DNA from: an uncultured Pelagibacteraceae bacterium
Lineage (GTDB): Bacteria > Pseudomonadota > Alphaproteobacteria > Pelagibacterales > Pelagibacteraceae
Direction: 5' to 3'
Length of the DNA: 36,243 nucleotides
Assembly (NCBI GenBank): GCA_902568425.1
Contig: CACFQM010000008.1
Location: forward strand, 1 to 36,243
Below, piece after piece: positions 2,212-5,695 of the stretch. The notes under the pieces were generated by a model, which saw nothing but the letters and a program-made list of their open reading frames with translations, was not told the origin of the DNA and did no database searches. Both the position numbers and the translations under genes were made by a program. Each line of letters begins with the position of its first letter. Positions within the stretch are counted from its first letter, which is position 1.

Positions 2212-2256
2212 AATCAGGGGTTGAATTTAATTTTTAATTTGTTAAAAACACAAAAG

Positions 2257-2331
2257 ATGAAAAGACAAAAAATCACTACTAAATCACACTCACACTCTCA
2301 CAGAGTGCACGCTAAGCTATTGCTTAGCTAA
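2257..2331 (+). CDS. Candidate His-codon-rich leader peptide (24 aa) ahead of tRNA-His-hisS-hisZ-hisG
   Basis: An ATG at 2257 opens 24 codons ending in TAA at 2329-2331. The peptide includes KSHSHSHRVHAKLLLS, with four His codons, all CAC, within eight positions. His is rare in this proteome, and the ORF lies directly upstream of tRNA-His, HisRS and the two ATP-phosphoribosyltransferase subunits, the arrangement expected of a histidine-sensing leader. The ORF overlaps two hairpins (2293-2328). Against it: no convincing Shine-Dalgarno sequence, no obvious downstream U-tract terminator, and a short ORF can arise by chance. Function is inference only. Confidence 0.4.
   Translation: MKRQKITTKSHSHSHRVHAKLLLS
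2293..2328 (+). promoter_or_regulatory. Tandem hairpins within the his leader, flanked by a 10-nt repeat
   Basis: Hairpin 1 is CACTCT (2293-2298), loop CAC, AGAGTG (2302-2307). Hairpin 2 is GCTAAGC (2311-2317), loop TATT, GCTTAGC (2322-2328). The direct repeat AAATCACTAC (2270-2279 and 2330-2339) flanks the pair. The segment is visibly richer in C and G than its surroundings. The hairpins coincide with the His codons and stop codon of the small ORF, so ribosome position would control their folding. A possible promoter lies at 2221-2248 (TTGAAT, 16 bp, TAAAAA). Alternatives are a small structured RNA or a processing signal for the tRNA. Confidence 0.4.
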
Positions 2332-2386
2332 ATCACTACATATTTAAAATACAAATTTATAAACAATTAATATAAAAAGGAGTTAT

Positions 2387-2467: not shown

Positions 2468-3994
2468 ATGGTAAAAGACAAAAAAACCAAACCTTCAAAG
2501 GAATTACCTTTAGGTTTTGTTGATAGACAAGAAAAAGAATTACTTGTACGTGATTTTATAATTTCAAATATTAAAGAAGTTATGATCAAGTATGGTTTTC
2601 AATATCTCGAAACACCAAGTTTTGAGTATACGGATAGTATTGGAAAATTTTTACCAGATAAAGATAGACCAGACGAAGGTGTCTTTTCATTTAAAGATGA
2701 AAATAAATGGCTGTCTTTAAGATACGATCTTACAGCACCTCTAGCTAGGTATGTTGCAAAAAATTATTTAGAAATTCCAAAACCATTTAAAAGGTATCAA
2801 CTAGGGACTGTTTGGAGAAACGAAAAACCAGGACCAGGAAGATTCAAAGAATTTATTCAATTTGATGCAGATTATATTGGCACAAATAATTTATTAGCAG
2901 ATGCTGAGCTATGTATTTTAATGTCAGAAATTTTAAAAAAATGCGGATTATCAGAAAAAGATTTTAAAATAAAAATCTTTAACAGAAAAATTATGGATGA
3001 CTTACTGAATAATCTAGGTCTAGAAAAAAAATATAAAAAAGAAGATGAGCTTGAAAAAATAAAATTAAAAATTTTAAGATCGCTTGATAAAATAGATAGA
3101 CTAGGAGAACAAGAAGTGTTTAAACTTCTAGGAAAGGGCAGAAAAGACAAATCTGGTGACTTCACTGAAGGAGCGCAACTTAATGATAATCAAATTTCAA
3201 TAATTGAAAATTTTTTAAGTGATTTAAAAGTTGCCAGGAGCAAAACTTTAAAAGAGGCAGGTTTAACAGTGAAAGATGACCTTGAAGATGACTCTGCTGA
3301 AGCAGATATTTATAGAGAAGAAATAAAAGGAACTGATGAAGAAAATTATATTTATTTTGACTCTGTTTTTAATGATCGCAAAGGTATTCCAACTGAGGGA
3401 CTTAACGAGTTACAGCAGATCAAAGAAATATTTGGAAGAGCTGGTTTCAAGAATTATATAATTGATCCAACGGTTGTTAGAGGCCTCGAATATTATACAG
3501 GAATCGTATTTGAGGCTGAATTAACTTTCGATGTTAAGAATAATCAAGGTAAAATTATTCAATTTGGTTCTGTTGGTGGCGGAGGCAGATATGACAATTT
3601 AACAAAAAGATTTAACAAAAATTTGGATTTTCCTGCAACAGGTATATCTATTGGTGTTGATCGATTATCTTATGCGATTACGCAAAAAAGAAATTTTAAT
3701 TTAAAAGAGAGTAAACCTGTATTGATTTGTCTTTTTGAAGAATTTTTAATGAAAGATTATTTTGAAATTCAAAGAGAGTTAATAAAGAACGATATTCCTG
3801 TTGAGATATATTCTGGAGAAGGTGAACTAAAAACCCAACTAAAATATGCCAACAAAAGAGGTTCACCCATAGCTATTCTGGTTGGTGCAAATGAAAAAGG
3901 ACAAAATAAAGTTACTCTAAGAAATTTAAGTTCTGGAGAGGAAAAGAGTTTAAATATTAATGATTTAGCAAATGAAATCAAAAAAATTATCTGA
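2468..3994 (+). CDS. hisS: Histidyl-tRNA synthetase, divergent alphaproteobacterial type
   Basis: This 508-residue class II synthetase charges tRNA-His. Motif 2 reads GTVWRNEKPGPGRFKEFIQF, the histidine motif VVRGLEYYTGIVFE, then GSVGGGGRYDNL and motif 3 ATGISIGVDRL, followed by the C-terminal anticodon-binding domain. The EKPGPGRF loop is the divergent form that accompanies tRNA-His lacking G-1. I chose the ATG at 2468; longer frames would begin inside the tRNA gene. Only TAAA separates it from the tRNA CCA end, so processing would leave an almost leaderless mRNA. The 3' end overlaps hisZ by 23 bp. Confidence 0.96.
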   Translation: MVKDKKTKPSKELPLGFVDRQEKELLVRDFIISNIKEVMIKYGFQYLETPSFEYTDSIGKFLPDKDRPDEGVFSFKDENKWLSLRYDLTAPLARYVAKNYLEIPKPFKRYQLGTVWRNEKPGPGRFKEFIQFDADYIGTNNLLADAELCILMSEILKKCGLSEKDFKIKIFNRKIMDDLLNNLGLEKKYKKEDELEKIKLKILRSLDKIDRLGEQEVFKLLGKGRKDKSGDFTEGAQLNDNQISIIENFLSDLKVARSKTLKEAGLTVKDDLEDDSAEADIYREEIKGTDEENYIYFDSVFNDRKGIPTEGLNELQQIKEIFGRAGFKNYIIDPTVVRGLEYYTGIVFEAELTFDVKNNQGKIIQFGSVGGGGRYDNLTKRFNKNLDFPATGISIGVDRLSYAITQKRNFNLKESKPVLICLFEEFLMKDYFEIQRELIKNDIPVEIYSGEGELKTQLKYANKRGSPIAILVGANEKGQNKVTLRNLSSGEEKSLNINDLANEIKKII

Positions 3995-5021
3995 ACAAAT
4001 TATCAAGACTTTTAAAAGTAATGGTTTTGTTTTATCAGAACCAGACGTACTTTTAGATTCAGATTATATCATCGAAAGATCTGGGGAGAATTTTAGGAAG
4101 ATAATGCTTACTTTTGAGGATGATGCTGGAAAAAGCATGTGTTTAAGACCAGATTTGACAGTTGCATCGTGTATTAAATATTTAAAAGATAAATCAAAAG
4201 CAAACTCAAAGATATATTATTCAGGCCAAGCTTATAGAAGGTCGAAAAGTTTGAAAAAAGTCATTAATTATCAATTAGGTTTAGAGATTTTTGGCTCTAA
4301 GAATAAATCAACTGATGATTTAAAAGTTTTAAAAACAATAACTAGTTCAATTAATAAAATAAAAATTAAAAATATATCGATCAAAGTTGGCGATGTAAGT
4401 TTATTTAAGCAATTAATCGAGTCCTTAAAAATACCAGAAAGATGGAGAATGAGATTAAAAAGGCACTTTTGGCGACCAAAATATTTTGAAGATTTACTTA
4501 ATAGGCTTGAAACAAATTCTGACGTTGATCCTGCTATAGTGGAATTGGATAAGAAAAAGTTTTATGAAATGAAGAATATTGATCAAAACAAAGAAGTTGC
4601 CAGCCGAAAAGTTTCGGAAATCATATCTAGATTTGACAGAAAAATTAAAGACCCAAGATCATTTAAAGAAAATAAAAAAATTGTTAAAATTATCAAAGAT
4701 TTTTTAAAAATTAATTGTTCATTGGATAAACTTGATAAAACATTAAATAATTTTATTGATAAAAATCAACTGAGCAGGAGCGTTTTTAAAGACCTATCAA
4801 GTTTGAAAAATTTATCTAGATTAAATTCTAAAATTACTTTTTCTACTAATTTTGGTAGAGATATCGAGTACTATTCTGGAGTAGTATTTGAGATATACAG
4901 TTCATCAAACAAAGAGATAGCACGAGGTGGTAGGTACGATGGTTTGTTGAAAAATCTTGGATCTGATAAAAATATTTCAGCAGTAGGTGCTGCAATCAAT
5001 TTAAATAATTTAAAAATATGA
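3972..5021 (+). CDS. hisZ: ATP phosphoribosyltransferase regulatory subunit
   Basis: HisZ is a HisRS-like protein without synthetase activity. It forms a hetero-octamer with short-form HisG and confers histidine feedback inhibition. The 349-residue sequence keeps the HisRS fold signals (SMCLRPDLTVASCIKYL, YYSGQAYRRSK, FGRDIEYYSGVVFEIY, ARGGRYDGLL) but lacks the anticodon-binding domain. It starts inside hisS and its TGA overlaps the hisG start by 4 bp, so translation of all three is probably coupled. The short HisG downstream, which needs HisZ, supports the call. Confidence 0.93.
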   Translation: MKSKKLSEQIIKTFKSNGFVLSEPDVLLDSDYIIERSGENFRKIMLTFEDDAGKSMCLRPDLTVASCIKYLKDKSKANSKIYYSGQAYRRSKSLKKVINYQLGLEIFGSKNKSTDDLKVLKTITSSINKIKIKNISIKVGDVSLFKQLIESLKIPERWRMRLKRHFWRPKYFEDLLNRLETNSDVDPAIVELDKKKFYEMKNIDQNKEVASRKVSEIISRFDRKIKDPRSFKENKKIVKIIKDFLKINCSLDKLDKTLNNFIDKNQLSRSVFKDLSSLKNLSRLNSKITFSTNFGRDIEYYSGVVFEIYSSSNKEIARGGRYDGLLKNLGSDKNISAVGAAINLNNLKI

Positions 5022-5695
5022 AAAATTTGATAACTATAGGGTTACCAAGCAAAGGTAGATTGAAAGAGAGTTCGATAAACTTTTTTGATAAAAATAATTT
5101 AAAACTTACTACAAATGGTGGAGAGAGAAACTATTTTGCTGCAGTAAAAAATTTCCCCAATATTAAAATAATTTATTTACATGCAAAAGAAATTATCCAA
5201 AGAATTGGCGATGACACCCTTGATATTGGGATTTCAGGTTTAGATCTTTTAAATGAGTCAGCTGCAAACCTGAAACAAAAGATTGAAATTAAGAAAAAAC
5301 TAGACTTTGGTTTAGCAAATGTTGTGATTGCTATCCCAGATGATTGGATTGATGTACAAACCTTAGCTGATTTAGAGGAGGTTTCATTTGATTTTAGAGA
5401 TAAAAAAAATACAAGATTACGAGTTGCAACCAAATATCCTAATCTGACAAATACCTTTCTTGTTTCAAAAGGTATTACACAATACAAAATAGTTCCTAGT
5501 CTTGGTGCAACAGAGACCTATCCCTTTATTGGATCTTCAGAAATTATTACAGATATAACTTCTACAGGAAAAACTTTGAAAGATAATAATCTCAGAATTT
5601 TAAAAGACGGCTTAATTTTGAAATCTCAGGCTTGTCTATTTTACTCAAAAAAAAAGGCTGCGAAATTGCAGCCTTTTTTAAATTCCTTAAAGTGA
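5018..5695 (+). CDS. hisG: ATP phosphoribosyltransferase catalytic subunit, short form
   Basis: HisG catalyses the first committed step of histidine synthesis, joining ATP and PRPP to phosphoribosyl-ATP. The sequence opens with ITIGLPSKGRLKESSINFF and includes GDDTLDIGISGLDLL and the PRPP-binding region ending in DITSTGKTLKDNNL. At 225 residues it is the short form lacking the C-terminal regulatory domain, which fits the presence of hisZ. It starts with an ATGA overlap on hisZ. Its last codons contain a complete intrinsic terminator, so the final residues AAKLQPFLNSLK are encoded partly by the hairpin. Confidence 0.95.
   Translation: MKNLITIGLPSKGRLKESSINFFDKNNLKLTTNGGERNYFAAVKNFPNIKIIYLHAKEIIQRIGDDTLDIGISGLDLLNESAANLKQKIEIKKKLDFGLANVVIAIPDDWIDVQTLADLEEVSFDFRDKKNTRLRVATKYPNLTNTFLVSKGITQYKIVPSLGATETYPFIGSSEIITDITSTGKTLKDNNLRILKDGLILKSQACLFYSKKKAAKLQPFLNSLK
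5647..5679. terminator. Intrinsic terminator embedded in the 3' end of hisG, likely bidirectional
   Basis: GGCTGC (5656-5661), loop GAAATT, GCAGCC (5668-5673) forms a GC-rich stem. It is flanked by nine A residues on the left and six T residues on the right, which also pair to lengthen the stem. It ends 13 codons' worth of hisG before the stop, so hisG transcripts must read through the hairpin to encode the full protein. The A-run makes it function equally on the minus strand, for the convergent gene at 5808-6200. Confidence 0.85.

Follow-up and report, generated by a model that had tools for sequence, protein, structure and literature searches.

How might SAR11 bacteria, which are among the most abundant cells in the ocean and are regarded as poor in protein regulators, match the expression of tRNA-His and its synthetase to the supply of histidine? 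The question is raised by a short reading frame rich in His codons in the window analysed here, a stretch of 36,243 nt that is contig 8 in a SAR11 genome of 66% completeness. Comparison with relatives suggests that this frame belongs to a leader that very probably lets a histidine-short ribosome switch up the genes for tRNA-His, HisS and the first pathway enzyme without a protein regulator. The features concerned are the following:

2221-2247, + strand: putative leader promoter, TTGAAT (2221-2226), 15 nt, TTAAAA (2242-2247)
2257-2331, + strand: His leader ORF, ATG to TAA, 24 sense codons, MKRQKITTKSHSHSHRVHAKLLLS and stop; open in all family members examined
2287-2310, + strand: sensor codons, CAC at 2287, 2293, 2299 and 2308, the last touching hairpin 2
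2293-2307, + strand: hairpin 1, CACTCT-CAC-AGAGTG, 6 bp, loop CAC; subclade-specific
2311-2328, + strand: hairpin 2, GCTAAGC-TATT-GCTTAGC, 7 bp, loop of 4, with the leader stop codon at its 3' edge
2332-2386, + strand: AT-rich spacer without a U-tract, nearly invariant in the genus
2371-2376, + strand: TATAAA, possible -10 element of a second promoter (P2) for tRNA-His, from conservation
2387-2463, + strand: tRNA-His(GTG), RF00005 at 71.9 bits
2468-3994, + strand: hisS, histidyl-tRNA synthetase, TIGR00442 above cut-off; no His codon in 509
3972-5021, + strand: hisZ, ATP phosphoribosyltransferase regulatory subunit, NF008953 E 1.5e-89, below the curated cut-off; overlaps hisS
5018-5695, + strand: hisG, ATP phosphoribosyltransferase catalytic subunit, TIGR00070 above cut-off
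5656-5679, + strand: canonical intrinsic terminator, GGCTGC-GAAATT-GCAGCC-TTTTTT, inside the end of hisG

The earlier note, made from the letters of this DNA alone, had described a 24-codon frame with four CAC codons in eight positions, followed by tRNA-His, hisS, hisZ and hisG; the frame was confirmed base by base, the CAC triplets being codons 11, 13, 15 and 18, and the gene order is as it was read. As in a his-type attenuator, a short ORF with an excess of codons for the amino acid under control, whose translation is deduced from conservation, stands upstream of the cognate synthetase and biosynthetic genes. Histidine accounts for 273 of the 1774 codons (15%) in 75 leader ORFs of the family, and for 1.5% in the ORFs of the window. 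The leader reading frame is open throughout, and the other two frames carry stops in 72/75 and 74/75 of these ORFs. The note had also proposed aligning the region across SAR11, and in that alignment the ATG is conserved, CAC/CAT changes are synonymous and the hairpins covary. Neither disruption of the ORF nor free variation of its His codons was seen: among 81 sequences the codon at 2308, which adjoins hairpin 2, is CAC in 41 and CAT in the other 40, never CAA or CAG, and both spellings occur within each of six genus groups. Of the 823 short non-coding ATG ORFs in a complete relative (G034), no other is as dense in His codons as the leader counterpart; this, together with the comparison across relatives, makes a chance origin very unlikely. 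We conclude from these patterns that the leader ORF is very probably translated and His-sensing. A crude screen of G034 for other leader peptides yielded nothing comparable; a candidate Trp leader, MLKWSEWLNWYLNI before pyrF-trpF-trpB, was rejected as it sits within an ihfB-like gene, in another frame.

Within the genus, the region was detected in 27 of 31 members at 87-100% identity, the genome of the window included. Beyond the genus, one survey placed a leader counterpart upstream of tRNA-His and hisS in all 75 reachable Pelagibacteraceae loci, with ORFs of 15-27 codons that contain 2-6 His codons and end 42-56 nt before tRNA-His; among the 75, L093 alone belongs to another type. At this locus (genome G087, possibly a contaminant contig) an unrelated tRNA-His and hisS follow another His leader, MLKKALFHIIPHHGF and stop, with a hairpin and then eight T. 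Public records, which overlap the survey in organisms, gave a leader at 79/79 loci with the tRNA in reach and 75 distinct peptides; relatives of HisS in named records come from uncultured Pelagibacteraceae single-cell genomes, HIMB058 and PRT-SC02. A covariance model matched 57 of 118 family genomes, once per matching genome and at tRNA-His/hisS, most of the misses shown belonging to genus g3, whose hairpin differs and scores weakly; it had no match in 142 non-SAR11 genomes. In a sister family of the order, a clustered-His leader (for example MFKFKHYHYHI and stop) directly precedes hisS without a tRNA at 9/9 loci, so that hisS is the constant partner of the leader. No similar ORF was found within 700 nt upstream of hisS in 40 other Alphaproteobacteria. 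The sister-family loci (L135-L143) also show a conserved ACCCCYT after the leader hairpin, then AT-rich sequence and an AGTAT element before hisS. The tRNA-His directly before hisS at L124, L125, L129 and L133 has the GTG anticodon and an odd T-loop, AGCGTAA instead of the TTC type, and these four were missed by ARAGORN and pass the Rfam tRNA cut-off; a similar tRNA-His at L132 was called by ARAGORN and has no Rfam match.

The second conserved element is an RNA structure. Tandem perfect hairpins had been noted in the window and both are there; only hairpin 2 is universal in the family, hairpin 1 being a subclade feature. Hairpin 2 is paired at all seven positions in 48/48 aligned sequences, with A-U/G-U exchanges, and takes divergent forms in genus g3. 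It starts directly after the last conserved His codon, so the conserved hairpin that overlaps or adjoins the control codons of a his-type attenuator is present here as well. Hairpin 1 occurs in genera g1, g2, g4, g6 and g8, in two registers, those of g2, g6 and g8 being a different hairpin in the other register. At its column 18/28, 13 sequences carry a compensatory replacement of C-G by U-A; one such change turns the encoded Val into Met, which argues that the pairing itself is selected. Sister-family leaders have a 9-bp hairpin that begins at the leader stop codon and contains four double-changed pairs, and their consensus structure consists of that one hairpin. The strand from 2257 to 2386 folds better than its shuffles (z = -3.9); no such advantage was seen for a longer stretch reaching into the tRNA (z = -1.0). 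No antiterminator pairing that would compete with hairpin 2 was seen, by eye or in the folds. Two further candidate pairings were discarded: a 9-bp match, found by eye in the window, between the hairpin 2 loop region and the 5' end of tRNA-His is not kept in other genera, and the outer helix ACUC/GAGU of the minimum-energy fold is lost in g4. The repeat AAATCACTAC, present at 2270-2279 and 2330-2339 and taken in the earlier note for a flanking motif, appears to be coincidental, its upstream copy not being conserved even within the genus.

Most genera have a TTG-containing -35-like element and a TTAAAW-like -10 element 8-11 nt before the leader ATG, so that the leader mRNA would probably be near-leaderless. 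A consensus promoter scan does not report the element at 2221-2247, which conservation makes a candidate promoter. In g2 and g10, the leader promoter is spanned by a 12-13-bp inverted repeat, TGTTGCAAAGTAA..TTACTTTGCARCA, a possible operator, as is TTGATAATCAA, which lies at the same region in g5 and g12 (these elements were seen in L034, L043, L046, L055, L060-L062 and L078). Further upstream in the window, an 11-bp hairpin, ATTGGGACAAA..TTTGTCCCAAT (2174-2211), lies behind a cold-shock gene (1942-2148) with no U-tract after it.

Comparison shows an ORF that keeps its His codons and is very probably translated, a conserved hairpin whose placement relative to the ORF is constant, an association with hisS, and a HisS almost devoid of histidine. 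These features probably reflect a ribosome-mediated, histidyl-tRNA-sensing leader in which a stalled ribosome blocks hairpin 2. We infer the transcription start, the stalling, the direction of the response and the role of Rho as follows. Transcription would begin at the leader ATG or shortly before it, with a ribosome translating the ORF, of 20-27 codons, behind RNA polymerase. With charged tRNA-His plentiful, the ribosome would reach the stop codon and leave, hairpin 2 would fold and most transcripts would end before tRNA-His and hisS. With charged tRNA-His short, the ribosome would wait at the His codons and, at the last of these, cover the 5' arm of hairpin 2; the hairpin could then not form, and transcription would proceed into tRNA-His, hisS, hisZ and hisG. 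As hairpin 2 is not followed by a U-tract, the ending would probably be Rho-dependent or otherwise factor-assisted. The first His codon of the window lies 24 nt before hairpin 2, and a ribosome stalled there would not cover it; severe starvation is therefore not simply explained.

How transcripts end is what separates this scheme from classical attenuation, in which hairpin 2 would be a weak intrinsic terminator needing no Rho. That reading draws on part of genus g3, where TTATTTAT, with 6 T in 8, or TATTTAAT, with 5 in 8, comes after the hairpin. In the window and most genera, only 2-4 of the first 8 nt after hairpin 2 are T; the intrinsic terminator that a his-type attenuator has before its first gene is not found, and no terminator-like site was detected on the + strand at the leader by a script that recognises the canonical terminator at the hisG end and rejects the leader hairpin. 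The lack of an evident terminator, remarked on from the start, is thus real, with no U-tract behind hairpin 2 in the window, and we regard classical attenuation as unlikely. Intrinsic terminators may be scarce in SAR11 generally: a hairpin plus U-tract was found at 9/306 convergent gene ends in a SAR11 genome whose genes were called naively, and, with nearly the same script, at 4/18 in a small E. coli sample. Rho is present in 7/7 near-complete SAR11 genomes, and the incomplete genome of the window yielded only weak homologues. The missing U-tract, the presence of Rho and the apparent scarcity of intrinsic terminators together make factor-assisted (for example, Rho-dependent) premature termination the most likely output step.

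The position of the ribosome could instead govern processing or stability of the leader-tRNA-hisS transcript, through RNase III, E or P, rather than its transcription. In most of the family hisS begins 4-5 nt after the CCA of tRNA-His (2464-2468 in the window), so that 3' processing of the tRNA would leave a leaderless hisS mRNA, and the spacer is unusually conserved, which also fits such a role. As the leader also occurs in the sister family, where no tRNA accompanies it, we consider control by processing improbable. The spacer (2332-2386) occurs in two types shared across genera and is conserved beyond what a -10 box alone explains. In nearly every family member the box itself, TATAAA, is found 10-13 nt ahead of tRNA-His; its excess over the other tRNAs of the genome, many of which have such a box, is suggestive only (P = 0.06). 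It may be a second promoter, in which case the leader would control only part of the output. Of the joint control of tRNA, synthetase and biosynthesis that had been proposed, the His leader upstream of all of these is supported, and control of the tRNA may be only partial.

A third proposal places the sensor in the synthetase: HisRS would repress its own message by binding the leader hairpin or the embedded tRNA, as ThrRS does in E. coli. The presence of tRNA-His in the 5' region of the hisS message invites this comparison; a search for an anticodon mimic found no GUG loop in hairpin 2 in any genus aligned, and the synonymous-only change of the His codon adjoining the hairpin would be left unexplained, which makes such binding very unlikely. 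Still less plausible is a functional small protein with the RNA structure secondary, for although the ORF is conserved across the order, the N-terminal half of its peptide drifts freely and only the His codons stay His, the sister-family peptides have only the His cluster in common, and changes at the C-terminal end track the pairing, a switch from CAC to CAT being accompanied by one from GTG to ATG.

A leader that senses charged tRNA-His through a stalled ribosome remains our preferred reading, and the composition of HisS counts in its favour. HisS contains 12 His in 38,078 codons across 80 public loci and none in the window, and none was counted in three examples from the sister family or in four further SAR11 examples; g3, g5 and g9 likewise have none. 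HisS of 13 other Alphaproteobacteria has 1-14 His per protein, one of these, L274, being probably the wrong ORF. This scarcity is consistent with selection for HisS production at times of low His-tRNA, and the near-absence of histidine would be an independent, easily tested sign of selection by natural histidine shortage.

No earlier report of a SAR11 His leader was found in the literature, among open-access papers. A 2009 survey of Pelagibacter RNAs listed intergenic regions with the tRNA-containing ones removed (PMC2704228), and an element of this kind would thereby be passed over. A conserved leader that works with no regulator protein would show how amino-acid sensing persists in SAR11 cells, and would provide an example of a tRNA gene inside a leader-controlled transcript. 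In its fullest version, the idea is of an attenuator specific to this lineage of streamlined marine bacteria: a near-leaderless His leader would act through Rho and one hairpin lacking a U-tract to control tRNA-His, its synthetase and the first enzyme of the pathway jointly, and the synthetase would have lost its histidines so that starving cells could still produce it. Taken as a whole, we advance it tentatively, as a real possibility rather than a probability.

Within 1780-2480, neither the Rfam His_leader family (RF00514) nor any T-box family matched up to E = 10, only the tRNA exceeded the Rfam threshold, and the locus does not have the character of a T-box. In the enteric hisL leader, described by RF00514, the His codons are consecutive, the hairpins exclude one another and the terminator has a U-tract. 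The SAR11 leader resembles it in its short ORF with clustered His codons, in the overlapping RNA hairpins and in lying upstream of hisG, but its His codons are interspersed, it has one universal hairpin and no U-tract, and it precedes tRNA-His and hisS. E. coli tnaC is a Rho-dependent leader that senses free tryptophan through nascent-peptide arrest; translation of a leader peptide would likewise control Rho access in SAR11, although we propose a sensor of codon starvation rather than of a free amino acid. In Bacillus, a His leader peptide lies upstream of hisZ and a hisS paralogue (PMC2965389), and these leaders, like ours, have a run of His codons within a short ORF that precedes hisS or hisZ; unlike ours, they were found through predicted intrinsic terminators, and no tRNA gene is mentioned, the same study reporting no similarity between Firmicutes and Proteobacteria leaders (PMC2965389). 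Mycobacterial cys leader peptides come without terminator hairpins, and Rho-dependence has been proposed for them (PMC1262725); they too combine a leader ORF of cognate codons with the lack of an intrinsic terminator, but for another amino acid, in another phylum and with no conserved hairpin (PMC1262725). The SAR11 leader appears to work like known his leaders, and what is new is its lineage, the hisS-centred set of genes, the missing terminator and, in one family, the intervening tRNA gene.
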